Part shown: in pieces, positions 1 to 48,457 of the stretch
Layout: every line of letters begins with the position of its first letter
How positions within the stretch are numbered: the first letter of the stretch is position 1
Source of the DNA: a virus
Length of the DNA stretch: 48,457 nucleotides
Strand: one strand, 5' to 3'
IMG/VR virus record: IMGVR_UViG_3300045303_000191
Span: 1 to 48,457 of that record
Translations under genes and position numbers: made by a program
The notes under the pieces: generated by a model
The model's database searches: none
What the model was told of the DNA's origin: nothing
What the model saw: only the letters and a program-made list of their open reading frames with translations

Positions 1-162
1 CATCGCTGCTAATGCAAGTTCCGAACGGAACCTTTGCCATAACTGGTTACCGATCGCAGATGAGGACCCCACCCGGTTCGCCTGTTCGCGTTCGTCGATT
101 GCACCGGATGAGAACCGGACCCTCGCTGCCTCGCCGCTCATCAACAATGTGGCTGCGGCGTA
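1..162. repeat. Left copy of the 162-bp terminal direct repeat
   Basis: Positions 1-162 recur at 48296-48457 in the same orientation with one difference: G at 36 against C at 48331. This is what an assembler leaves when a circular or circularly permuted genome is opened. It could also be a short real terminal redundancy. The repeat lies inside the adaptor gene, and the mismatch changes one codon on the minus strand (Gln here, Glu in the other copy). Confidence 0.95.
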
Positions 163-22565: not shown

Positions 22566-22878
22566 CTTCCACCTCCAAAGCGTTGGTAAGCCCGACACGC
22601 AACGTGTCGAGCCTGTCTAGTTCCTGAAGAATCAACTCACGTTTTCGGTCGTCCGGAAGGTCAACGCTGTTGATGACCTCCAACGGGTCAATGTCCTCAT
22701 CCAGGTCTTCAAGCTTCACTAGTGCCTTCTGTTTCTCAAAGGAAAGAACCAGGTTCAAAAGCCCTGTCCCGGCAAGCTTCCTAGCCTCCTCTGGGTCCTC
22801 CAGCCTCCGACGCAGCTCGCTCTCAGCGAGTTCTTCTAGGCTGCGACTGCCTGCTGAGTTCTGATCCAGGTCAGACAT
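22540..22878 (-). CDS. Helical acidic protein, candidate small terminase or packaging accessory
   Basis: This 112-residue protein starts MSDLDQNSAG at 22878, inside the last codons of the epimerase gene. It is nearly all helix with many Glu, Leu and Arg (SLEELAESELRRRLEDPEEA, LQELDRLDTLRVGLTNALE) and ends in an acidic tail. Small terminases are helical oligomers of about this size found just before terL. No clear DNA-binding HTH is visible, so this is only a candidate. Confidence 0.55.
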   Translation of the reverse strand: MSDLDQNSAGSRSLEELAESELRRRLEDPEEARKLAGTGLLNLVLSFEKQKALVKLEDLDEDIDPLEVINSVDLPDDRKRELILQELDRLDTLRVGLTNALEVEDDTPTDGA

Positions 22879-23759
22879 TCCGACATGCCCTCCTCCAAAC
22901 TCACCGAAGGGGACCACCCGAGATCCCTGAGCTTCCGGGTTGAGAGTCGCTTAACCACCGTCTGACGGGAGGGCGGATTCACCATCTCGATCAGGGTGTG
23001 AGGGGCTCCCGTAAGGTCACACGCGAGTTCAGCAACCTCACGCATAGGTCTCGGGTCGTCGTCGCGGCCGACGTTGAAGATCCCGCCCGGAGTGTCCAGG
23101 ATCATCCTGACACCCCGAACGGTGTCCCCTACCCAACACCACGACCGCTCAGAGGCTTTATGGACAGGGATGGTTTGGCGGTTGTCTGCCTGCCACAGCA
23201 TGTTGATGATGGCGGCACGGCCCCGGCCGGCTGGAAGACCGGGACCGTACGGCATTGAGAGACGCAGGATGGTCAACCCCTGAGGGCAGTAGAGACGGGA
23301 AATCTCCTCACCCCAACGTTTGCTCAATCCGTAAGCGTTATGTGGTATCCGGTGCGGCGCCACGCTCTTGCCGAGGTTCTCTTCGTAGCAGGTGACGTTC
23401 GCCTCATCACCGTAAACCTCGCTGGTGGATGCGTACACCAAACGGATGTTGCGCTCCCCGCACTCCCGAGCGACCAACCCGGTGATCCCCGCGTTGTCCG
23501 CGATCGTGCGTTGCACATCGTCCTCGCCGAACAGTCTCCCCACCTTCGCGGCAAGATGGATCACCATCTGGGGTGAGTTGAGTTTCAACAGCTCCCGGAG
23601 GTCATCGGGCTTGCTGATGTCCTTGCCGAACATCACCTCGTCCACCGACCGGCCGTGGAAGTCGATGTCTACCCCGTCGACATGGTGGCCGTGCTCGCGC
23701 AACTCGCGGCAGAGGTGGGTGCCGATGAACCCGGCGCTGCCGGTAACGAGGATCCTCAC
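22836..23759 (-). CDS. NAD-dependent nucleotide-sugar epimerase/dehydratase
   Basis: This 307-residue extended short-chain dehydrogenase has an N-terminal Rossmann motif TGSAGFIG (6-13), IHLAAKVG, the STSEVYG strand with the catalytic Ser/Thr, and NAYGLSKR with Y143 and K147. The substrate half includes LRLSMPYGPG and a conserved-looking WCWVGDTVRG. This is the layout of GDP- or UDP/dTDP-sugar epimerases. The GTG start overlaps the upstream stop (GTGA). Four glycosyltransferase-like genes precede it in the same operon, so it probably supplies or alters the donor sugar. Confidence 0.9.
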   Translation of the reverse strand: MRILVTGSAGFIGTHLCRELREHGHHVDGVDIDFHGRSVDEVMFGKDISKPDDLRELLKLNSPQMVIHLAAKVGRLFGEDDVQRTIADNAGITGLVARECGERNIRLVYASTSEVYGDEANVTCYEENLGKSVAPHRIPHNAYGLSKRWGEEISRLYCPQGLTILRLSMPYGPGLPAGRGRAAIINMLWQADNRQTIPVHKASERSWCWVGDTVRGVRMILDTPGGIFNVGRDDDPRPMREVAELACDLTGAPHTLIEMVNPPSRQTVVKRLSTRKLRDLGWSPSVSLEEGMSECLTWIRTQQAVAA

Positions 23760-24502
23760 GGCCTCTCAACCATCATGTGCGCGAACCTCTCCTTGTTGTC
23801 GAGTACATAGGGGGGCAGGTCATCTGTCCATTCGAGTTCTTGTTTCACCACGTCGGGGAACAAGGGCATCCCCATCTGCGCCCCCGCAAGATCAGCGTGG
23901 GGGACAAGCTCCTGATGAACGAACGACCTGAGTTTGTACTCGGGGTTGTTCATCCACGACAAATGCCAGCCGGGCGGACCAACGGGCTCCATGTGCGTCA
24001 ACCTGGCTTCTTCTAGATCCTGGAAGTCTGTGCCGATGGCCCGGGCGGGGAAGATCCTTGCGATCTGCCACGACTCATGGGCTGGTTCTTTCCAGCGCCA
24101 GTTAAGTTTGGCGACGTGCATGTTGCATAACAAGATCGCGCTATCCGTGTCTATCGCCCGCACAGCGTCGGGATGCGGTATCTCGTCAAGGTCGCTGAGG
24201 AGAATGCGGTCTGAGGGTTCGCCTTTGAACCCGTACCACAAACATTTGCGTTGACGTTTCTCCCGGGTCCAGTCATGCACCCCCGTGGGCATCTCAACAA
24301 CACGGTGGATGATCTTGTCCCGCCACGGGTCCCACCTTGGGAGGTGGAGGTCTTTGAGGAGATGCAGTTCCTTCGGGTGGCCAGAATGCGTGACGGGCGA
24401 TTCGCCGATGACGTGCCAGTCCACGACGTCATCGAGGGTTGCGAGTCGGATCTCGAGGATGTCCAACTCGTCGAAGAACGGGGTCAGGCTCCAGACAGCC
24501 AC
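23756..24502 (-). CDS. GT17-like glycosyltransferase
   Basis: About 248 residues from GTG 24502. The open frame is longer (to 24655), but that part shadows the upstream GT2. The start VAVWSLTPFFDELDILEIRL, then DDVVDWHVIGESPVTHSG and the DxD-bearing ILLSDLDEIP (DLDE at about 104-107), match the pattern of family 17 N-acetylglucosaminyltransferase-like proteins (FFNELDLLEIRL...SDxDEIP). The LARIFPAR-type middle and aromatic C-terminus fit a GT-A fold. The acceptor is unknown; it overlaps the epimerase gene by 4 bp. Confidence 0.75.
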   Translation of the reverse strand: MAVWSLTPFFDELDILEIRLATLDDVVDWHVIGESPVTHSGHPKELHLLKDLHLPRWDPWRDKIIHRVVEMPTGVHDWTREKRQRKCLWYGFKGEPSDRILLSDLDEIPHPDAVRAIDTDSAILLCNMHVAKLNWRWKEPAHESWQIARIFPARAIGTDFQDLEEARLTHMEPVGPPGWHLSWMNNPEYKLRSFVHQELVPHADLAGAQMGMPLFPDVVKQELEWTDDLPPYVLDNKERFAHMMVERP

Positions 24503-25098
24503 AGCACCCACTGGTCGAACTTCGCCCGGTCGGCCCACATGCGTTGCTCCCACGTCATCCCAGCACCCCGACCAGCCTCGGCTAGTGAGTGCGTAAATGC
24601 GTAACCGCGATGGACACCCGTCCAGATACCGTGCTTTGCCCCCGCGTAACCCCAAGCGTTGTCGGTGAAATAGTGATGCGCTCCCAGGAACGTGTCGACT
24701 TGTTCATGAAGGAGTTCCCACTGTTGCCGGGACAAAAAAGGGATTCGGCTGAAGTCCGTTTGGTAGCCCGTGGGATGCTCAGTTTCCCAGCCATCAGACC
24801 CGCCGCAGCTTTGAAGCGTGCCGTCATCGTTCAGAATTCGGGGGGCGGGTAGGAAACCTCGGCGTACCACTTCCATCGCCGCCACCGACCACGATGGATG
24901 TGGATACAGATCATCGGCGCTGAAGTGGACAAAGTCTCCCTTAGATCTTCTAGCTCCTTCGACCCAAGCTTCTCCGCAGGTTGGCTTGTCCTTGATGACG
25001 ATGACCTCGTAGTCTTCGGTGTTCTCTTCGTACCCACGAAGACAGGTTTCGAGATGGCGTTCACGCCCAGCGATGGTCGGCACAACGACACTGATCAA
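24484..25098 (-). CDS. GT2-like glycosyltransferase
   Basis: This 204-residue GT-A fold protein begins ISVVVPTIAGRERHLETCL, then CGEAWVEGARRSKGDFVHFSADDLYP, in which A-D-D (61-63) stands in the DxD position. The start is TTG overlapping the upstream TGA (TTGA); no better ATG or GTG is in frame. A short C-terminal part (WTGVHRGYAFTHSLAEAGRG) contains a histidine that could coordinate metal. The donor sugar cannot be told. Confidence 0.7.
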   Translation of the reverse strand: MISVVVPTIAGRERHLETCLRGYEENTEDYEVIVIKDKPTCGEAWVEGARRSKGDFVHFSADDLYPHPSWSVAAMEVVRRGFLPAPRILNDDGTLQSCGGSDGWETEHPTGYQTDFSRIPFLSRQQWELLHEQVDTFLGAHHYFTDNAWGYAGAKHGIWTGVHRGYAFTHSLAEAGRGAGMTWEQRMWADRAKFDQWVLWLSGA

Positions 25099-25250
25099 CC
25101 CTTACGCTGGCCGGGATAGAAACCCTGGATGATGTCCTGGCGGCTAGCCGACTTGCTAGGTCGTGGCGACCAGTACGCCCACCCAGCCCGGATCCGCAGC
25201 TTGTCCGTTTCCGACCACACCAGCTTCACATTCGGTTTCGTGCCCGCCAT
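25095..25250 (-). CDS. 51-residue hypothetical basic protein
   Basis: The ATG at 25250 overlaps the upstream TGA (TGATG) and its stop overlaps the TTG of the GT2 gene. The product begins MAGTKPNVKLVWSETDKLRI and continues with a Trp/Arg-rich segment to FYPGQRKG. It exactly bridges two genes by overlaps, which supports reality. Function is unknown. Confidence 0.65.
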   Translation of the reverse strand: MAGTKPNVKLVWSETDKLRIRAGWAYWSPRPSKSASRQDIIQGFYPGQRKG

Positions 25251-25462
25251 CAGCCCTCAGCCTTCTCCTCCGCGAGATCAGAAGCGTCGGCGGCGTCGAT
25301 CTCGTCCGCGAGCTCCTGCGGAATCTCCGAGCCCTTGAACAGTCCTTTGGTTGTGCTGTACATGTCTTCGTTGGATTGGGGGATCTTGATAACGCTGATC
25401 ACGTCGTTGACGGTGATCTTCTGTCCGCCGACCTCGTATGTGGTGAGTTTCTCTTTCGCCAT
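25250..25462 (-). CDS. 70-residue hypothetical protein
   Basis: It starts MAKEKLTTYEVGGQKITVND after a strong TAGGAGGAG site. The beta-rich first half is followed by an acidic helical end (ELADEIDAADASDLAEE). The strong RBS just after the LAGLIDADG gene suggests the homing gene inserted between it and the GT2 gene upstream. No family is recognised. Confidence 0.7.
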   Translation of the reverse strand: MAKEKLTTYEVGGQKITVNDVISVIKIPQSNEDMYSTTKGLFKGSEIPQELADEIDAADASDLAEEKAEG

Positions 25463-25471
25463 GATCTCCTC

Positions 25472-25894
25472 CTACCAGAGTGTTGGTTGCCGTAGAACCT
25501 TTCGGTCACTACGCCTGAAGTTCGCCATTTCGTCTCTGCCGCCCAGGTTGTTCTTAAGACGATGCTCCCGGATCTCCGCACGAGCTCTGACGTACTGGTT
25601 TCTCTTCTCCTCAGAGAGATACGGCCATAGCTGCTCCATAACCTCTATCCCTTTTTGGCCCGTAAGTTGCCACTGCCAAAATGGTTTGCGTCCGTCCTTA
25701 CGGAGCCGAGGACCGCTAATTGCTCCCATACCGCCCACGGCTCTCTGGAACCTCTCTAGCGTTTCAGGATTCGTCTGCCCAACCGAGAGACGGAAGTAGT
25801 AGTACTCAACCGCTTTCGGCTTGCACCTAGCCACCATGGTGCTTCCTTCGCCATCGAAGAAACCAGCGGCCCAGGCAAGCTCAGTCTCAGACAC
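25472..25894 (-). CDS. LAGLIDADG homing endonuclease
   Basis: This 140-residue protein has one LAGLIDADG-type motif near the start (LAWAAGFFDGEG, residues 6-17), so it would act as a homodimer, as single-motif members do. The body has the alternating beta-strand/helix pattern (YYYFRLSVGQ, QWQLTGQKG). It lies between a GT2 gene and the 70-residue gene with no sign of an intron or intein around it, so it appears free-standing. The GTG start overlaps the upstream gene by 8 bp. Confidence 0.85.
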   Translation of the reverse strand: MSETELAWAAGFFDGEGSTMVARCKPKAVEYYYFRLSVGQTNPETLERFQRAVGGMGAISGPRLRKDGRKPFWQWQLTGQKGIEVMEQLWPYLSEEKRNQYVRARAEIREHRLKNNLGGRDEMANFRRSDRKVLRQPTLW

Positions 25895-26558
25895 TTGTCT
25901 CCGGATTCAATCCGCGCAGGAGGGCGGTACGGCGATAGTACTGAGGAAAGTCATTGAACCGATGAAAGCTGATGTTGTTCGCGACGGTGGGTTGCAGCCG
26001 GCCAACCATCCACCCACGCGACATGATCTCTGTGGATGCTTGGGTGTCTTCGTCGTTGCCGCCGGGACGCCACGTGCCGGGAACCCACCGGAACCCCTCG
26101 TCATAGATCTCTCTCCGAATGACTGAGTTGCCGCCGGGGTTGGTCAGCCACAACCCCCAGCGTTCCTCGTAAGGGGGACCGTCTGGGTAGTCCTCGTGGG
26201 CGTTCAAGATCCCCAACTGCCCGAGATGAGGGAGTCGTTCGAAAGTCTGTTCTACTTCTTCTCGCCAGCCGGGTAGATACTCCACATCGTTGTCGGAACG
26301 ATGAAGCAGATCGGCATCGAAGGCTTTCAGTCCGTGGTGCCAACCGATGTTCGCGGCAGCGCCGGGGAACAGGTTCTTGTCGTTGAGAACAACGTCAGCA
26401 CGGTCATCTAGCCACTCGCGAGTTCCGTCATCGCTTGCGTTGTCGACAACGATCAAGCAACGACTGCCCAGTTCGCCAGACGTTTCAAGGTAACTCTCGA
26501 TGGTTCGTTTGGTGTACTCCAACCGGTTGTGCGCAACGATGACCGACAACATATTCAC
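25887..26558 (-). CDS. GT2-family glycosyltransferase
   Basis: About 223 residues from GTG 26558 (which overlaps the upstream TGA); ATG 26552 is equally possible. The GT-A fold is clear: MLSVIVAHNRLEYTKRTI, CLIVVDNASDDGT, NLFPGAAANIGWHHG, and HRSDNDVEYLPGW, in which S-D-N-D (about 88-91) holds the metal-binding acidic residues. It is closest in feel to rhamnosyl/galactosyl-type GT2 enzymes. It belongs to the sugar cassette. Confidence 0.85.
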   Translation of the reverse strand: MNMLSVIVAHNRLEYTKRTIESYLETSGELGSRCLIVVDNASDDGTREWLDDRADVVLNDKNLFPGAAANIGWHHGLKAFDADLLHRSDNDVEYLPGWREEVEQTFERLPHLGQLGILNAHEDYPDGPPYEERWGLWLTNPGGNSVIRREIYDEGFRWVPGTWRPGGNDEDTQASTEIMSRGWMVGRLQPTVANNISFHRFNDFPQYYRRTALLRGLNPETSV

Positions 26559-26620
26559 GTCACATGCACCAGCCACAGCACGAACCAGAGTAGAAACACG
26601 ATCTCACAAGCAAGTTTCAT
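26555..26620 (-). CDS. 21-residue transmembrane mini-gene
   Basis: The ATG overlaps the upstream TGA (ATGA) and the TGA overlaps the GTG of the GT2 gene (GTGA). The product is MKLACEIVFLLWFVLW plus five residues: essentially one membrane helix. It fills exactly the gap between two genes. It may be a real membrane peptide, or chiefly a translational bridge. Confidence 0.5.
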   Translation of the reverse strand: MKLACEIVFLLWFVLWLVHVT

Positions 26621-27006
26621 TCCTCGGTGAACACCATCTCATCGAGGAACTGGAAGATGTGTTTGGTGCAACCCGGCAGAGTCACCGATTTTCCCGTGTG
26701 CATGCCATGTTCGTCCGGCTCGACGTTCGTGAAAACCGCTGAGAGTAACCAGGATGTTTGTTCGTAGCAATTTGCTCTTGTGCATGTTCTCGGCTCAGCG
26801 ACATCGTAGATCTGAACAATGGTGGACACATCAGACTCATCCATGTTCGTATCAAGAATTGGTTTCTCATCCAGTTTTGTTTCCGCATCCTCTAAAGCCT
26901 GGACAAGAAACTCAACGTGTTCGGCGAGAACAAGGGCTTCTGGGTTATCGCTCTTGTGCCGTGTTTCGCGAGCGACCTGCATGGCGTCTTCGATGTGCGG
27001 ATCCAT
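26617..27006 (-). CDS. 129-residue hypothetical protein
   Basis: This protein starts MDPHIEDAMQVARETRHKSD, helical and acidic. The second half carries CTRANCYEQT and a later LPGCTKHIFQFLDEM, giving three Cys and a His that could hold a metal. It lies between two GT2 genes, 1 bp after one and overlapping the next mini-gene. Unrecognised. Confidence 0.65.
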   Translation of the reverse strand: MDPHIEDAMQVARETRHKSDNPEALVLAEHVEFLVQALEDAETKLDEKPILDTNMDESDVSTIVQIYDVAEPRTCTRANCYEQTSWLLSAVFTNVEPDEHGMHTGKSVTLPGCTKHIFQFLDEMVFTEE

Positions 27007-27564
27007 CTACGCGGCTACGGACTGGAACTGGTTGCCGTCATGGAATCTGTACGTCCACAAGACCTCGGGAACACATTTGAACCGTCCGCCGTGCAACCAA
27101 ATCCGCTGCCACAACTCCCAGTCCTCGAGGGGCTGGTTGTGGTAGCCCCCCACCATGTTGAACATGTCCCGCCGTATCAGCGCGGTGTTCGGGATGAAGT
27201 TCCGTCGGAACAACATCTTCGCGTTGAACAACCTGTTGGGGCACCAGTCGGTTCGTCCGTCCATGCGTGTCCACGGGTACACGACATCAGCGTCTACTCC
27301 TGCTCGGACCAGTTGCTCACAGCAATCGGGATCGAGTACGTCGTCGTCATCGAGTGGGAGGAGCCATTCAGTGGTCGCATCTTTCGCAAGGTTGTTGCGG
27401 GTACGTTGCGGACCAAAACGCTTCCCGTCGACCGCGACCAGGTGCGTGACCTTGATGGTTTGCGCTTCGACTGAGGCACTGCACTCCTCCAAAAGTTTCA
27501 CCCGTTCCGGAAGGGTGGGGGTGATGACGGTGACTTTTACGCTACCGCTGGTTCCGGTGTCCAC
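27007..27564 (-). CDS. GT2-family glycosyltransferase
   Basis: This 185-residue GT-A protein begins at GTG 27564, overlapping the GT4 gene by 28 bp. It shows VTVITPTLPERVKLLEEC, then EWLLPLDDDDVLDP, whose Asp cluster (72-75) is the canonical DxD, then IPNTALIRRDMFNMVGGY and ending YRFHDGNQFQS. The length is short for a full GT2, so it is a minimal catalytic domain. Confidence 0.85.
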   Translation of the reverse strand: MDTGTSGSVKVTVITPTLPERVKLLEECSASVEAQTIKVTHLVAVDGKRFGPQRTRNNLAKDATTEWLLPLDDDDVLDPDCCEQLVRAGVDADVVYPWTRMDGRTDWCPNRLFNAKMLFRRNFIPNTALIRRDMFNMVGGYHNQPLEDWELWQRIWLHGGRFKCVPEVLWTYRFHDGNQFQSVAA

Positions 27565-28646
27565 AACTGTTTCCTCGCGGCAGCCTGGTCAGCAAGCGCC
27601 TGGTAGAGGGTTTCCCATTCTTCGATCGCGGTGTCGTACGTGAAGTCCTGGGCATTGACATACGCAGCGTGCGCCAACCGGTTCAGATGCATAGGTGCGC
27701 TGATGAGCCTGTCAAGCGCGGCTTTCCACTGGAACGGCAGCTCACACAAATAACCGTTGGTTCCGTCTTCGATGAGTTCTTTGTACTGGGCGGTTGGGGT
27801 CGCTAACGGAACAATCCCGCACGCCGAGTACTCCAAGCCTTTCAGGTACGACTTGCCTTCGTTGAACCTGTTCTGGGCCAGCGGAACCAACCCGATGTCC
27901 ATCACCGAGGTGATGTAGGCGAGCTCTAGGTGGCGGTAGTCGGTCCGGTCGGTGGTGACTCTTTGGGCTTCGGGGATGGCAAGGTACTCGTGTACGTCTG
28001 CTCCCCCAGCCGAGACGAACTCAACGTCTGGGTGTGCCGCCAACCATTCTCCGAGCCACGGCTTAACAACGTCCAAGTCTGCCTTGTGGTATTCGAGGAT
28101 CCCCATCCAGCCAACACGCAGCCGCCTCCACTCTCGCCGTTCATACACCGGGGCTAGTTCGCTCCACATGGGCCAGTGGAGACGGTTCCGCAAAACGGTG
28201 ATGTTGGGGTTCAGCTTCTCGTAAGACCTCTTCAACGAAGGTGTGGACACGGTGACATGGTCGGCCATCGCCACCGTCTGATGAAACACCGCCGGGTCGT
28301 CGTTGAACGGGTTGTAAGCCGGCACATGCAAAAGGTCATCGTCGACCTCAACCACAACTTTTTTCCCGGCCTCGTGTATCTGAGTGATGATCTCCGGGAC
28401 GTTCGGGGTGTTCGCCATTTGCAGCACGTACACGTCCGCGTCGGGCCAATCCCCGAAACTACACGTCACCCATCCTTCCGGTAGCTGCCCGTCGGGGAAC
28501 ACCTGCACGGGTTGCCCATCTGGTCTCGTGAAGGCCATTGGGGGGCACTGCGCGAAATGCCCCCGCTCCGTCAAATAATGCGCCGGGAACAAACACCGAT
28601 ACCACCCGCTGGCGTCGATGTTCTTCGGCAGAAAGCAGACGCGCAC
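27537..28646 (-). CDS. GT4-family (GT-B) glycosyltransferase
   Basis: This 369-residue protein begins MRVCFLPKNIDASGWYR and contains VVVEVDDDLLHVP, then MADHVTVSTPSLKRSY, RRLRVGWMGILEYHKADLD and the donor-binding region FNEGKSYLKGLEYSACGIVP. This is the two-Rossmann GT-B plan with the E-x7-E-like helix. The GTG start overlaps the previous TAG (TAGTG). It is the first sugar gene of the cassette. Confidence 0.9.
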   Translation of the reverse strand: MRVCFLPKNIDASGWYRCLFPAHYLTERGHFAQCPPMAFTRPDGQPVQVFPDGQLPEGWVTCSFGDWPDADVYVLQMANTPNVPEIITQIHEAGKKVVVEVDDDLLHVPAYNPFNDDPAVFHQTVAMADHVTVSTPSLKRSYEKLNPNITVLRNRLHWPMWSELAPVYERREWRRLRVGWMGILEYHKADLDVVKPWLGEWLAAHPDVEFVSAGGADVHEYLAIPEAQRVTTDRTDYRHLELAYITSVMDIGLVPLAQNRFNEGKSYLKGLEYSACGIVPLATPTAQYKELIEDGTNGYLCELPFQWKAALDRLISAPMHLNRLAHAAYVNAQDFTYDTAIEEWETLYQALADQAAARKQLWTPEPAVA

Positions 28647-33962: not shown

Positions 33963-34237
33963 GGACGTTCCCCCAGCGAGGGATCACGGAGTCGCGCTAT
34001 CGCATGACTGACGAGCCCCATAACCGACGTGTCCGTCAGGGCATCGAAGGCCGAGGCGAGGGCTGCATCAGCCTCAGCTACAGCCCCGAGTAAATCCTTG
34101 AATGCCTGTTTCTCATGCACAGGACACTCCGGGTGAGTAATCCGGCGTCCGTGTTGAGTCGGCTCGTCGCACAAGCAGCGGAAGCTGAGCGACAGCAGGA
34201 AATCTTGTAGACCGTTCCCTGATTCGGATGTGCTCAC
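33959..34237 (-). CDS. 92-residue hypothetical protein with Cys/His cluster
   Basis: It starts at GTG 34237, overlapping the modular protein's stop (GTGA). CLCDEPTQHGRRITHPECPVH provides several Cys and His in a possible metal site. A helix DLLGAVAEADAALASAFDAL follows. No known family. Confidence 0.65.
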   Translation of the reverse strand: MSTSESGNGLQDFLLSLSFRCLCDEPTQHGRRITHPECPVHEKQAFKDLLGAVAEADAALASAFDALTDTSVMGLVSHAIARLRDPSLGERP

Positions 34238-35088
34238 TGCTGCTCCTCTGGTGGTGTCCCAGCAACCACAGCCCCGCAGTCACGGCATTTCCACCCACCG
34301 GCATACGCAGACACAGACGGATGTCCGCACACCCCGCAGAAACGGGTCGGTCGCTCCGGTGTCCCAGAAACCACAGCACGCGCCTGAAGTCGTTCCGCGA
34401 TCCCAATCAGTTCGCTCACGACCATTTCCAGCCCAGGCGCGTCACCAATGAGTTCCCCGGATTCCCAACGCTTCGTAATAGCGCCAAGAATCGCGCCATC
34501 GTGGCGCGTATCCTCCGGTGTCCCAGCAACCACAGCAGCCACAGCAGCCACAGCCTCGCGGTAACGGGCGATATTCCGCAACAATTCCATCCCGAACAAG
34601 TTGCCGTCTCCAATGACTTCGGAGCAGGCGACGAGATCCCATATCGCATGTTCAAGTTCGGCTACTACGTCTCTCTGAGCCAGTTCCCGTTCAAGCGCAT
34701 CGCAAAGCTCAGGCACAAGCTGCCCGATGCTCGGCGATCCAGACGCACCACGCGCTTCTGCGATCAGTGCCCGCACTTCTTCTTCTGTGGGTGCCATCCA
34801 ATCCTCCTTCGGCCCAGAAACCACAGCAGCCGCGATCTCGGCAGCCTCTAGAGCGTCGTCCTCCGACCATGTGTGCTGGTCTTTGATCGCCGCGATTCGA
34901 CGCAGCGCCTTGTCCTGTGCGGCTACTACGTCTCTCTGAGCCACGCTGGAATCCCAAAGATGGCCGACAAGAATCCCAAGTCGCATCACCGCAGCGACTC
35001 CCACCGTGTCATCGTCATCCATGAGATCACGCACGGCGTCCAGAGCGTCTTTCAGTTCTTCTTCTGTGGGTTGACGAGACTCACTCAC
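34234..35088 (-). CDS. Modular repeat protein with C-terminal zinc ribbon
   Basis: About 284 residues from GTG 35088 (GTGA overlap); GTG 35097 is also open. Two modules share the order PTEEE, an Ala-rich helix, AQRDVVA and AVV(S/A)G(T)PxE, at residues about 7-95 and 98-193. A third partial module ends AVVSGTPE, and a fourth carries CGVCGHPSVSAYAGGWKCRDCG, a four-Cys ribbon, before AVVAGTPPE. The AVVxGTPE strings come from a repeated DNA element that contains an RBS. An in-frame ATG at 34797 has a near-perfect GAAGGAGG 6 nt upstream, so a shorter product beginning MAPTEEEVR is likely too. It looks like several short genes fused. Function is unknown. Confidence 0.7.
   Translation of the reverse strand: MSESRQPTEEELKDALDAVRDLMDDDDTVGVAAVMRLGILVGHLWDSSVAQRDVVAAQDKALRRIAAIKDQHTWSEDDALEAAEIAAAVVSGPKEDWMAPTEEEVRALIAEARGASGSPSIGQLVPELCDALERELAQRDVVAELEHAIWDLVACSEVIGDGNLFGMELLRNIARYREAVAAVAAVVAGTPEDTRHDGAILGAITKRWESGELIGDAPGLEMVVSELIGIAERLQARAVVSGTPERPTRFCGVCGHPSVSAYAGGWKCRDCGAVVAGTPPEEQQ
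34243..34827 (-). repeat. Dispersed RBS-bearing (start-associated) element, four copies here
   Basis: On the minus strand each copy reads about GCTGTGGTT(G/T)CTGG, then GACACC or GCCGAA, then a GGAGG-like core. Copies are at 34243-34272, 34354-34377, 34511-34536 and 34802-34827, with a diverged fifth copy at about 33838-33866. The first copy, the 34802 copy and the fifth directly precede real or internal start codons. The identical GGCTACTACGTCTCTCTGAG also occurs at about 34662 and 34921, confirming recent duplication. Confidence 0.7.
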
Positions 35089-35312
35089 GTCGTCCACTCC
35101 AGGGTGATGTCAAGAACAAAGGCGATCTTCTGGGCCAGACGCGTGTCGGAGTCAAACCAAATGGCGCCGTGATTGGAGGCCCAGGCCCGGAACTCCTCCT
35201 CCAAAGCCCGGTGATCCTCAACCTCGTCCGCTGTCCAGCGCGAACGGTGGCCATAACTATCGGTCGGTCGGTCGAAAGTTGGGGGTGTGGGTTGACGAGA
35301 ACCACCAGTCAC
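35085..35312 (-). CDS. 75-residue hypothetical protein
   Basis: It starts at GTG 35312, overlapping the HNH stop (GTGA). The first residues (GGSRQPT) repeat those of the next gene (SESRQPT) at DNA level, suggesting a duplicated gene start. The rest is helical and acidic (TADEVEDHRALEEEFRAW) and ends LAQKIAFVLDITLEW. Unknown role. Confidence 0.6.
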   Translation of the reverse strand: MTGGSRQPTPPTFDRPTDSYGHRSRWTADEVEDHRALEEEFRAWASNHGAIWFDSDTRLAQKIAFVLDITLEWTT

Positions 35313-35764
35313 GCCGACTCCAATGGAACAACGAGCGAACCACCGCAATGAGGACAGTGAGTCGCGCCGCTGCCGTGATTGCCTAGGCGGAGCTCGAGAT
35401 TGTCCAAGCGGTTGTCGTCCCGCAAACCGTTCTTGTGGTGGACCTGTTCGCTGCGGTGGAGCGGTCGGCCTATCTCACGCTCGACAAGAAGCCGATGCTC
35501 CGAAAGCGTGGCATAGCGATCCTTGCCACCGATCCACCCATACCAAGTGATGTATCCGTTCGAAGCCTTCCGCCTTGCCCATCTGGGGGGCTGCCCTGGG
35601 TCTTTACGGACACCTCCGATAGGACGCCGCGAAACTCCCTTCTCACGCAGCACATTGGCGACCGTGCCGCTACCAACTCCCAGCCGCTCCGCTGTCCGAG
35701 GGATCGACCGCAGCTCCGCATAGGTCTCGAGCATCTGATCCCTCTTCTGAGCCGAGTAAGTCAT
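35309..35764 (-). CDS. HNH endonuclease with N-terminal HTH
   Basis: 151 residues from ATG 35764 (ATGA overlap). Residues about 10-45 look like an HTH (YAELRSIPRTAERLGVGSGT). The HNH core is SEHRLLVEREIGRPL, then QVHHKNGLRDDNRLDNLEL (H109-H110, N122) and later H130, with a CPHCGG knuckle at the end. This layout is common in phage-borne free-standing HNH nucleases. Confidence 0.85.
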   Translation of the reverse strand: MTYSAQKRDQMLETYAELRSIPRTAERLGVGSGTVANVLREKGVSRRPIGGVRKDPGQPPRWARRKASNGYITWYGWIGGKDRYATLSEHRLLVEREIGRPLHRSEQVHHKNGLRDDNRLDNLELRLGNHGSGATHCPHCGGSLVVPLESA

Positions 35765-36099
35765 CTCAGGCCACACGCTCGACTCGTGTTCGGCCACTCA
35801 CGCCAAGATCCCCCGTCCTGTTTCCACACCAACCAAGCGTGGAAATACTGCTCGTTCGGTATGTGCGAGGCGAGATCGGAAAGCGAACCCGCGTCCCGGC
35901 CGCCAACACGGTTGTAGGTGCTCAACATGAACTGGAAGCCGCCGGCGTAGGGTGGGTTGACGATCCGCCAGTTATGCGACTCGCCGCGGTGAACGCAGAC
36001 GGCTTGGAGGTACCACCAGTGCGGGAACCGGTGCAACGGTCGTTTGGCCGCTGCGGCGGTAGTGGCGAGTAGGAGGGTGACAAGAGCGATCGTGAGCAC
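35761..36099 (-). CDS. Secreted Rpf-like transglycosylase domain protein
   Basis: This 112-residue protein starts at GTG 36099, 2 bp after the integrase stop, with GGAAAGG upstream. A signal peptide (LTIALVTLLLATTAAAA) is followed by a compact lysozyme-like domain: CVHRGESHNW (Cys35, catalytic-type Glu40), YAGGFQFMLSTYNRVGG, and the closing WREWPNTSRACGL (Cys109, a probable disulphide to Cys35). This is the pattern of actinobacterial resuscitation-promoting-factor domains, which cut peptidoglycan outside the cell. It is far from the lysis and virion genes and sits beside integrase, so expression from the prophage is plausible. Confidence 0.75.
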   Translation of the reverse strand: MLTIALVTLLLATTAAAAKRPLHRFPHWWYLQAVCVHRGESHNWRIVNPPYAGGFQFMLSTYNRVGGRDAGSLSDLASHIPNEQYFHAWLVWKQDGGSWREWPNTSRACGLR

Positions 36100-36101
36100 T
36101 C

Positions 36102-37340
36102 TCAGGACGCCTTTCCTTCCGTCGGGGACACGGTTTGGATCCGCTCAACCAGGTCATCCAGGAGCGGGCTGCTCTCGGCGGGGGACGGCCGACCATTCTC
36201 AGGCGCGTGTCCGGCTTTACCCGGCTGCTCGTCCCCCTCCGACAACAGCGGTTTTGGCCCAGGTTGTGCGCTAGCCTTCTGTTCTTGAAGTGGGGTGGGT
36301 ATCGAGGGTTCGAATCCCTCCTTCTCCGCCTCAACCAGCGGCACCAACGATTCCTCGCTATTTGCGGGAGAATCGTTGTAGTCGAAATCGCGGTTCCGTT
36401 CCATCGCCGCGTCACGGTTCAAACGGCGAAGGTAAATCTGGGTGGTCTCCGGCCGCTGGTGGCCCATGTTCACCCGCAGCGTTTCGATGTCGCCCGGATA
36501 CCGCTCGAGGAAGTTGACCGCATAGGCGGCACGGAACGTGTGGGGTGTCGCCTTGATCTTGGTTCGTTGCGAAACGTTCCGGACGGCGATCTCGATCACA
36601 CGGTTGTCGCGCTTCTCGTTGCGATGCGACGTGGCTGAAGGGATCAGATAGTCGTCGTCCATCACGTCGCGGTAGCCGCGATGAACCCACCTGCCCGTAA
36701 CCAACTTCCAGCCCATCGAACGCGGAGCCTTGAGTGAATCCTCGATCATCGCGGCCAGCACCTTCGGGACCGTCTTCCAGATCGTCTTCGATCCCTTCTC
36801 CACGAACCGCAGCTTCCCGGTCACGGGATCCCAATCGGAAACCCTGAGATTTGACGCAGCGGAACGCCTCGCCCCCGTGTACGCCAAAATCCCGATCGTG
36901 AGTTTTTCCGTCCATCCCTGAGCCGCCTCAAGCATCTTCATCACGTCACTCGTGGAGATCGTCAGTACGTCTTTGTCTTCGTCGCGCTGACGTTTCGGCG
37001 GCAACATCCGTTCCATCGGGTTCGCCTTCAACTCACCCTCGAAGTACAGCCATTTGAAATGCCCTCTGAGGATCGAATCTTTCTGAGCACGTGTGGCCGG
37101 CGAGAGATGGTTGAACCGGTCTAGGAAGCGACGCACCTCGTTCTTGGTGATGTCGTTCACCACCGTTCGGTAAGGCAACGAGTCGTTGAAGTCGTCTAGA
37201 CAGCGGCGGTATGTGACGCATGTCCGCTCAGCCTTGCCGCGCCGGGCCAAATCACCGAGGTAGCGGTCGATCGCGTCCGTGTAGAGGAGAGCCATAACCT
37301 CCACATACACCACCCCAACCTCTGATTCCAGAGCAGTCAC
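36102..37340 (-). CDS. int: Tyrosine integrase containing the att core in its 3' end
   Basis: About 412 residues from GTG 37340, which overlaps the previous TGA (GTGA); ATG 37295 (MALLYTDAIDRYLGDL) is an alternative. The SAM-like N-terminal domain is followed by the catalytic domain with R158 (YTGARRSA), K185 (EKGSKTIWK), H267 and R270 (PHTFR), H294 (MGHQRPE) and Y303 (TQIYLR). About 38 residues after the tyrosine, EKEGFEPSIPTP is the antisense reading of a tRNA 3' end. A further 60-residue disordered tail follows. Integration at that core would swap or remove the tail without touching the active site. Confidence 0.9.
   Translation of the reverse strand: MTALESEVGVVYVEVMALLYTDAIDRYLGDLARRGKAERTCVTYRRCLDDFNDSLPYRTVVNDITKNEVRRFLDRFNHLSPATRAQKDSILRGHFKWLYFEGELKANPMERMLPPKRQRDEDKDVLTISTSDVMKMLEAAQGWTEKLTIGILAYTGARRSAASNLRVSDWDPVTGKLRFVEKGSKTIWKTVPKVLAAMIEDSLKAPRSMGWKLVTGRWVHRGYRDVMDDDYLIPSATSHRNEKRDNRVIEIAVRNVSQRTKIKATPHTFRAAYAVNFLERYPGDIETLRVNMGHQRPETTQIYLRRLNRDAAMERNRDFDYNDSPANSEESLVPLVEAEKEGFEPSIPTPLQEQKASAQPGPKPLLSEGDEQPGKAGHAPENGRPSPAESSPLLDDLVERIQTVSPTEGKAS
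36304..36330 (+). other. attP: Probable attP core: tRNA 3' end (likely tRNA-Ser)
   Basis: On the plus strand, GAGGG-TTCGAAT-CCCTC (36304-36320) is a perfect T arm. It is followed by CTTCTCC and G, i.e. the 3' acceptor strand and discriminator of a tRNA (36321-36328), then CC. No complementary 5' half (GGAGAAG) or anticodon arm lies upstream, so it is a tRNA fragment. Discriminator G, the acceptor sequence and a G-rich variable-arm-like stretch before it suggest tRNA-Ser. Such fragments beside integrase are the usual attP of phages that integrate into tRNA genes. Confidence 0.8.
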
Positions 37341-37552
37341 GCGTTCCCCGGCTCCCACCAGCAAGTAGGACAAAACTCAGGGTCATCCTCCGGATAATGG
37401 GCTGGCGTTTCGCCGCACCGCGAACACAACTTCTCCTCTTCGCCTGAGCCCTGGATCTCTACACGCTCGATCCAGCCCAACCGAGCGGCGATAGTGATCC
37501 CCCGGCGCCAGCCCAGCAAGCGAATGAGAAGCCTGGTCGTACGGCCAATCAT
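37337..37552 (-). CDS. Small zinc-ribbon protein upstream of integrase
   Basis: 71 residues from ATG 37552 (ATGA overlap). A basic helical start (MIGRTTRLLIRLLGWRRG) is followed by LCSRCGETPAHY and EFCPTCWW: two C-x2-C knuckles forming one ribbon. It overlaps int by 4 bp, so it could be a recombination directionality factor by position. The fold is unlike the usual winged-helix Xis. Confidence 0.6.
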   Translation of the reverse strand: MIGRTTRLLIRLLGWRRGITIAARLGWIERVEIQGSGEEEKLCSRCGETPAHYPEDDPEFCPTCWWEPGNA

Positions 37553-37814: not shown

Positions 37815-38113
37815 GCCGCCACCCCATAACGCTTCCCAAGCCGGCGATACGCGGCTCGGTTGTCACAGGCATTGCAGCCCGGCGTCCGAGCATCCAAACG
37901 CGTACCGCACTCCTTACAACCACCGCGCCGCGTCGGGGTTGCCCGGCGCTTCAGAACCTTCTGGAGCCTCCTCGCAAGATCGTGGCGGCAGAGCAAACAA
38001 CCTTCCTCATCGCCATAGACTGCGAGCGGGTGCTTGCAGTCCGGGCACATGGTTGGGTCCGCGTCCACCTTCTCATCGAGGACCTGCTGGATAAGACGCG
38101 CAGTCAAGGTCAC
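37811..38113 (-). CDS. Double zinc-ribbon protein
   Basis: 100 residues from GTG 38113 (GTGA). MCPDCKHPLAVYGDEEGCLLC is one four-Cys ribbon, and GGCKECGTRLD with CNAC is a second. The basic segment KVLKRRATPTRRGG lies between them. Nucleic-acid binding is likely. Confidence 0.7.
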   Translation of the reverse strand: MTLTARLIQQVLDEKVDADPTMCPDCKHPLAVYGDEEGCLLCRHDLARRLQKVLKRRATPTRRGGCKECGTRLDARTPGCNACDNRAAYRRLGKRYGVAA

Positions 38114-38463
38114 GCGGTCTCCCTCAAGAGCTCAACGAGGTGACGACGATGCCACTCCACCACGATCGCATCACACGCATCCCGCAAATACCCCGTGCCC
38201 TTGAGGTCGAAGGCTTGGCAACAGAGCGCGTGAAGCCGCTGATCGGACGCCCCGCCGGAGGATCGAACTCCGGTCTCCGCCTCGACAGGGCGGTGTCTTG
38301 GGCCATTAGACGAGCGGGGCTCTGAGTTACCTGTACCTAAAGCGTATTCCTCACTACTAGCGCCTTTGGTTCTAACGGGATCTACAACGCTAAGGGTTGT
38401 GGTTCTTCCCCCGGCTCTGTTCTCTACGGGTTGGGGTACGGGTACGGGGTGCTTGGAATCCAT
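38110..38463 (-). CDS. Coupled ORF that reads through a tRNA gene
   Basis: A 117-codon frame starts at an ATG overlapping the previous TAA (TAATG) and ends at a TGA overlapping the next GTG, as real genes here do. However, codons about 48-72 are the tRNA-Asp. The C-terminal part (LHALCCQAFDLKGTGYLRDA, then CDAIVVEWHRRHLVELLRE) looks like genuine helical protein. The N-terminal part is Pro/Arg/Thr rich and unconvincing. Either the tRNA was inserted in frame into a gene, or only the 3' part is coding from a non-standard start after the tRNA. Confidence 0.45.
   Translation of the reverse strand: MDSKHPVPVPQPVENRAGGRTTTLSVVDPVRTKGASSEEYALGTGNSEPRSSNGPRHRPVEAETGVRSSGGASDQRLHALCCQAFDLKGTGYLRDACDAIVVEWHRRHLVELLRETA
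38248..38320 (-). tRNA. tRNA-Asp (anticodon GTC)
   Basis: A complete 73-nt cloverleaf without encoded CCA. The acceptor stem is GCCCCGC/GCGGGGC with discriminator G, the D stem GTCT/AGAC, the anticodon stem CCGCC/GGCGG with loop CTGTCGA (anticodon GTC), a 4-nt variable loop, and the T arm CGGAG-TTCGATC-CTCCG. All stems pair perfectly, so it is probably functional. Processing from the operon transcript would cut the overlapping ORF's mRNA. Confidence 0.93.
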
Positions 38464-42539: not shown

Positions 42540-42585
42540 GACACATCGTTCATGTGTCAGATTGAAGCACACATCGAACACACAT
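42540..42585. promoter_or_regulatory. Operator array between divergent regulators
   Basis: GACACAT (42540-42546) and its inverse ATGTGTC (42552-42558) form a perfect palindrome with a 5-nt spacer. Two further direct ACACAT boxes lie at 42569-42574 and 42580-42585. Box starts are 11 bp apart in each pair (42541/42552 and 42569/42580), about one helical turn. Clear -10/-35 boxes were not fixed. Confidence 0.65.
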
Positions 42586-42599
42586 GCAAGGGGCAGCAC

Positions 42600-43007
42600 A
42601 TGAAACGTTCGTCGCAAAGAGCGAGTGTTCCGACTAGAAGAGGGTTCTCGTCTGGCGTCTACCTGGAGAACCTTTTGGCGGAACTCAACCGTGCCGAGAT
42701 CAGCGCACGCATCAAACAAGCCCGCACCCAAGCCGGCCTAACCCAACCCGATCTAGGGGATCTGCTCCAGGTCCATTGGAGGACGGTTCAGGGCTGGGAA
42801 AGCAAAGTCGTCCCGTGGGACAGGTTGGACGAGATCGCCAGGGCCACAGGGCAGACCCGGGACTGGTTACTGCACGGCGACCAGGCTGTTACACCGGATC
42901 TCCGGGGTGAGGTGGCACAACTGACAGAACGGGTCGACCAGATCCTGGAGGTCGTGCTGGCCCTCCTTGATTCAGCAGAGCCTCCATCTGCGTCAAAGCA
43001 CCCCTGA
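42600..43007 (+). CDS. XRE-type HTH regulator (candidate repressor)
   Basis: 135 residues from ATG 42600 with AAGGGG upstream. After a basic N-terminus, residues about 33-90 form a Cro/C1-type HTH: EISARIKQARTQAGLTQPDL, then VHWRTVQGWESKVV and LDEIARATGQTRDWLLHG. A coiled-coil C-terminus (EVAQLTERVDQILEVVLALL) would make dimers. It is one of only two confident plus-strand genes and is divergent from the early operon, so it is the best immunity repressor candidate. Confidence 0.85.
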   Translation: MKRSSQRASVPTRRGFSSGVYLENLLAELNRAEISARIKQARTQAGLTQPDLGDLLQVHWRTVQGWESKVVPWDRLDEIARATGQTRDWLLHGDQAVTPDLRGEVAQLTERVDQILEVVLALLDSAEPPSASKHP

Positions 43008-48259: not shown

Positions 48260-48457
48260 TCAGAGCAAACTCTGGCAGTGGTGAGGCATCGCAGGCATCG
48301 CTGCTAATGCAAGTTCCGAACGGAACCTTTCCCATAACTGGTTACCGATCGCAGATGAGGACCCCACCCGGTTCGCCTGTTCGCGTTCGTCGATTGCACC
48401 GGATGAGAACCGGACCCTCGCTGCCTCGCCGCTCATCAACAATGTGGCTGCGGCGTA
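48260..48457 (-). CDS. C-terminal end of the adaptor gene (second copy at the map end)
   Basis: This is the same reading frame as the gene at 1-846 and is the real 3' end: after the repeat it continues PAMPHHCQSLL and stops at TGA 48260. The difference at 48331 gives Glu instead of Gln in QLWERFR. This entry is partial only because the circular map was cut here. Confidence 0.85.
   Translation of the reverse strand, partial: YAAATLLMSGEAARVRFSSGAIDEREQANRVGSSSAIGNQLWERFRSELALAAMPAMPHHCQSLL
48296..48457. repeat. Right copy of the 162-bp terminal direct repeat
   Basis: Identical to 1-162 except C48331 against G36. Joining the copies gives one continuous reading frame, which supports a circular map. 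Confidence 0.95.

Follow-up and report, generated by a model that had tools for sequence, protein, structure and literature searches.

The virus record IMGVR_UViG_3300045303_000191 from IMG/VR, analysed here over its full 48,457 nucleotides (the window), carries the 3' end of a tRNA-Ser gene within the 3' part of its tyrosine integrase gene, int. It is likely that this segment, at positions 36297-36330, serves as the core of the phage attachment site (attP) in an arrangement like that of Myxococcus phage Mx8, such that integration would exchange the C-terminal tail of the integrase (Int) whilst leaving the enzyme itself intact.

A tRNA-Ser 3' end inside int

The 34-mer at 36297-36330 matches 48 stretches of genome contigs exactly, and in all ten of the 48 loci that were run through ARAGORN it forms the 3' end of a tRNA-Ser gene; the genome contigs were scanned with this 34-mer only. 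It spans the 3' side of the variable arm, the T arm, the 3' strand of the acceptor stem and the discriminator region. Since an exact tRNA-Ser end with all of its 3' parts is present, a chance origin is negligible. Strict T-arm matches in the window are confined to this segment and the phage's own tRNA-Asp gene, shuffled controls gave none, and the 27-mer at 36304-36330 occurs once in the window. A preliminary description, made from the letters of the window, had reported a T arm and acceptor strand at 36304-36330 lying antisense in int; the element is real and is longer than was thought. It had also proposed that a tRNA-Ser gene ending in this sequence should serve as the bacterial attachment site (attB). 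Such exact ends exist, as the ten ARAGORN loci demonstrate, but the attB of the host itself was not found.

The two ends of the window share a 162-bp terminal repeat, which an exact end-repeat search misses owing to a single mismatch, and the sequence of a sister phage is contiguous across them. The window thus represents a circular or terminally redundant free-phage form and, as this form contains one copy of the core, the core is a candidate attP rather than one of the prophage junctions, attL or attR. It is very probably the attP core.

Read antisense in the frame of int, the core encodes EKEGFEPSIPT, at about residues 322-333 and 35-45 residues past the catalytic tyrosine, Tyr288. It is predicted to sit in a flexible, disordered linker downstream of a complete enzyme.

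The integrase and its tail

The int open reading frame (ORF) extends over 36102-37373 on the (-) strand, with its stop at 36102 and alternative starts at GTG 37340 and TTG 37373. The protein has Phage_integrase and SAM-like core-binding domains (Pfam) and is of the simple type, in which the core-binding domain begins at residue 9 and there is no separate N-terminal arm-binding domain. An alignment of 28 tyrosine recombinases shows no variation at R143, K167, H252, R255, H279 and Y288. The tyrosine was earlier numbered 303, counting from the start at 37340, and its placement upstream of the core holds. A structure prediction built from the 28 aligned sequences is confident over most of residues 1-300, falls to a predicted local distance difference test (pLDDT) score below 50 at residues 303-376 and ends in a short helix at residues 377-387. 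Its ordered part gives fold matches to lambda Int 75-356, Xer enzymes and Brujita Int. All six catalytic residues and the C-terminal helix of the enzyme precede the core, so the prophage form of Int should remain a recombinase.

Beyond the core the frame continues for 62 residues, mostly disordered in the model apart from one short terminal helix. By codon score, the int frame is the best of all six across this tail in the window, and the same frame is the best of three in the sister phage. A tblastn search of phage records with the core-plus-tail peptide returned no match, and the only match to the conserved tail DNA in viral contigs was the sister phage. The window Int ends in KAS, but 14 of the 36 other proteins of the window also end in A or S, and the ending is therefore uninformative as a degron.

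Features of the window that bear on the proposed attachment site
Feature	Position	Strand	Basis
Terminal repeat, copy 1	1..162		one mismatch to 48296-48457
Rpf/transglycosylase-like gene directly downstream of int, expected at the other prophage end	35761..36099	(-)	Pfam PF06737 match, weak and under the cut-off
Tyrosine integrase gene int, 397 aa when started at ATG 37295	36102..37295	(-)	Pfam PF00589 and PF02899, PHROG integrase, fold matches
62-residue Int tail after the core, replacement expected on integration	36105..36290	(-)	int-frame codon score positive, other frames negative; partly kept in sister phage
Predicted short helix close to the tail end (residues 377-387, around DDLVERI)	36135..36167	(-)	model; DDLVERL in sister phage
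34-nt tRNA-Ser 3' end, proposed attP core, antisense to int	36297..36330	(+)	exact tRNA-Ser gene matches
TTCGAAT (T loop), proposed strand-exchange interval between T-stem inverted repeats GAGGG/CCCTC	36309..36315		inference; sister-phage homology breaks at left border
Catalytic Tyr288 codon	36432..36434	(-)	invariant with R143, K167, H252, R255, H279 in 28 sequences
Helix-turn-helix repressor-like gene, not adjacent to int, untouched by core	42552..43007	(+)	PHROG transcriptional repressor matches
Terminal repeat, copy 2	48296..48457		one mismatch to 1-162

A sister phage with a different integrase

The sister phage, IMGVR_UViG_3300045282_000136, has a backbone in common with the window (TerL 96% identical, many blocks at 80-95% identity) and an integrase of another kind, of 318 residues. 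It keeps the tail in a reading frame of its own, not joined to its integrase, reading ...HPSIPTPLDPIKASAQPGPDPLVDDLVERLKQTEKEQA where the window has ...EPSIPTPLQEQKASAQPGPKPLL[..]SSPLLDDLVERIQTVSPTEGKAS. The tail differs strongly between the two phages: that of the sister ends in -EQA and carries DDLVERL in place of DDLVERI. DNA homology spans the tail and ends right after TATCGAGGG, the border between T stem and T loop of the core. A breakpoint at this position would fit an exchange of integrase modules at the attachment site.

Within positions 1448-1850 of the sister-phage locus, a small palindrome is present in ATGTGCGCACTCGCC, the sequence that directly follows the shared TATCGAGGG; this sequence could be the crossover site of the sister integrase.

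Proposed course of integration

The partner of the core in recombination by Int would be a host tRNA-Ser gene, at its 3' end, with strand exchange probably around the T loop, GAGGG-TTCGAAT-CCCTC. Integration would restore the tRNA at the int-bearing junction. The virus form of Int would consist of the catalytic domain, the linker and the 62-residue tail ending in its small helix, whereas the prophage form would join the same catalytic domain and linker to some 20 residues antisense to the remainder of the tRNA, followed by host-encoded residues up to the first stop. As proposed in the preliminary description, the catalytic residues would be kept, all six being upstream of the core, and the tail replaced. 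By topology, the Rpf-like gene and everything at lower coordinates would move to the other end of the prophage, again as foreseen there.

The expectation that int would read into host DNA was examined in silico on the 48 tRNA-Ser loci with the 34-mer, proxies rather than the host, to each of which the phage arm was joined. Wherever the flank sufficed, the int frame stayed open beyond the core for at least 18 codons, so that it continues into the antisense tRNA-Ser and usually into flanking host DNA, as expected. One of the Oscillospiraceae contigs, CANRNA010000262.1, holds two copies of the 34-mer, one of which diverges within the tRNA; the diverging copy may be a fragment of tRNA-Ser at the boundary of an integrated element.

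Several observations weigh against this account. The collections scanned yielded neither a lysogen nor attL, attR or attB. Most exact matches to the 34-mer come from Oscillospiraceae and none from an actinobacterial contig, although the relatives of Int belong to actinobacteriophages. The coding signal, by codon score, is weaker in the tail than in the body of int. A prophage with a close relative of Int was absent from the collections scanned, a single-protein query of viral contigs gave no close relative, and 391 Clostridia genomes, searched for this Int, contained two partial matches, both weak. In phage and plasmid records, the tRNA matches are so widely conserved that they do not point to a host.

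Comparison with known systems

The closest parallel is Mx8. In its genome record, Tyr354 of Int is followed about 67 residues on, at about codon 421, by the antisense sequence ACGGGTTCAAGTCCCGTACTCCTCGCCA and then by about 113 more residues. We take ACGGGTTCAAGTCCCGTACTCCTCGCCA to be the 3' end of a tRNA-Asp-like sequence. In both phages a tRNA 3' end thus lies antisense and in frame within int, past the catalytic tyrosine and before a long phage-specific tail, which in the window comprises 62 open codons. Mx8 differs in the length of its Int (534 aa), in its tRNA-Asp-like core and in having an excisionase, Uoi, beside int, and its Int is only marginally similar in sequence to that of the window. 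The comparison draws on the genome record and on two papers (PMC6070905, PMC4383910). attP lies within the Mx8 int gene, and integration creates a new 3' end of int and changes the specificity of the enzyme (PMC6070905); the integrases of both Mx8 and SSV extend across attP (PMC4383910). The layout is therefore already known from Mx8, of which the window is a further case. The preliminary description had contrasted it only with systems that have attP in the repressor gene, and novelty is not supported: Mx8 is an exact architectural precedent, and the SSV-type integrases are more drastic.

In the latter, the 'suicidal' archaeal integrases, attP likewise lies inside the integrase gene, and integration splits and inactivates the enzyme (PMC8371274). 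A review of archaeal recombinases describes self-disrupting integrases as confined to archaea. Membership of this class is ruled out for the window, where all six catalytic residues lie on one side of the core, upstream of it.

The nearest Ints of named phages, at about 24% identity, are those of Gordonia phages Walrus, Bunker, TillyBobJoe and Phishy and of Mycolicibacterium phage NM241. Each of these five phages has a tRNA T arm, in antisense orientation, in the upstream repressor gene. A T arm in the C-terminal part of int was found in none of 36 related IMG/VR loci. On sequence comparison, the layout of the window is different from that of its nearest Int relatives, which are themselves distant. 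An attP T arm in the repressor gene is the signature of integration-dependent immunity, in which repressors and Ints of the BPs type carry C-terminal proteolysis tags (PMC9262239 for the Ints). The window resembles such phages (BPs, Brujita) in its arm-less integrase and in an antisense tRNA T arm within a gene whose C-terminus integration alters. It differs in the gene concerned: those phages have attP in the repressor gene, upstream of int, and the window has its probable attP in int itself, where the repressor-like gene at 42552-43007 contains no T arm and is about 5 kb from int on the opposite strand. With the core in int rather than in a repressor gene, and the repressor-like gene neither adjacent nor in the same operon, the window was rejected as a member of this group. 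Among 31 distinct sequences of Ints related to the BPs/Brujita type, 29 end in A or S, which is consistent with widespread C-terminal proteolysis tags; the window Int is arm-less, but its KAS ending is not above the base rate.

Tyrosine integrases with a tRNA gene as attB, together with a phage-borne tRNA gene, are also found in the tRNA-dependent lysogeny of Fionnbharth. That system combines a short core with a phage tRNA of the disrupted isotype, and it was rejected for the window, which has a 34-nt tRNA-Ser core and a phage tRNA of the Asp isotype. The tRNA-Asp gene was also set aside as a marker of the target because the core is the end of a tRNA-Ser. This gene (anticodon GTC; 38248-38320, (-) strand) lies about 1 kb upstream of int and overlaps a predicted ORF on the same strand (38110-38463); no tRNA-Asp gene was present in the examined parts of the sister phage.

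Consequences of the overlap

Altered activity, stability or expression of Int after integration is plausible; the bias of insertion over excision suggested in the preliminary description would be a conjectural effect of this kind. We nevertheless lean towards a neutral overlap, in which the core came to lie in the 3' end of int through compact packing of the module, the swap of tails has no consequence and int in the lysogen is under the usual transcriptional control, perhaps with a contribution from read-through, antisense to int, from the tRNA promoter. In the lysogen this host promoter would be directed into int from the 3' side, and antisense transcription could lower int expression. The predicted disorder of the core and most of the tail, together with the strong divergence of the tail between the sister phages, favours neutrality, although the coding frame of the tail has stayed open and its helix motif is conserved.

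It is unlikely, by comparison, that integration acts as a switch on Int, with loss of the -KAS ending or of the DDLVERI helix changing its stability or the direction of recombination. An arm-less Int controlled through its own C-terminus would be a counterpart of the loss of the repressor tag in integration-dependent immunity, a parallel to which we give little credence. The sister phage does retain the helix motif, BPs-type Ints and repressors have C-terminal proteolysis tags, 29 of the 31 related Ints have a final A or S, in common with the window Int, and the specificity of Mx8 Int is reportedly altered after integration (PMC6070905). Against this, A/S endings are found in 14 of the 36 other window proteins, and the sister tail, ending in -EQA, is separate from the sister integrase.

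Still less probable is that the tRNA-Ser end is a relic, a captured or old attachment-site fragment in a phage that integrates elsewhere or never: neither attB nor a prophage was seen in the collections scanned and the tRNA-Asp gene near int could hint at a different target, but the full, exact 34-nt end lies inside int with the only other strict T arm in the tRNA-Asp gene, the sister-phage breakpoint falls within the core, and its length resembles that of the common cores of actinobacteriophages, which typically cover the 3' half of a tRNA over 30-45 bp.

With the core in int as attP, an apparently independent phage group would join the few bacterial cases in which an integrase gene crosses its own attachment site. 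In these cases, Mx8 and the window, integration would alter the int gene without destroying the enzyme. As the nearest relatives of Int place the site in a repressor gene, they offer a clean comparison: does it matter which gene has its C-terminus changed, or is the arrangement mere compact packing?

Other regions of the window

DNA comparison of the 35-39 kb region with phage records gave no match. The stretch 22836-28646 on the (-) strand, which separates the terminase from the small early genes, holds a sugar-nucleotide epimerase gene (22836-23759, Pfam) and several glycosyltransferase-like ORFs, with a possible role in modifying the virion or the host surface. The region 34228-35097 contains recurring short sequence blocks with scattered sharing with the sister phage, among them the zinc-ribbon segment PERPTRFCGVCGHPSVSAYAGGWKCRDCGAVV and a repeated VVSGTPE.
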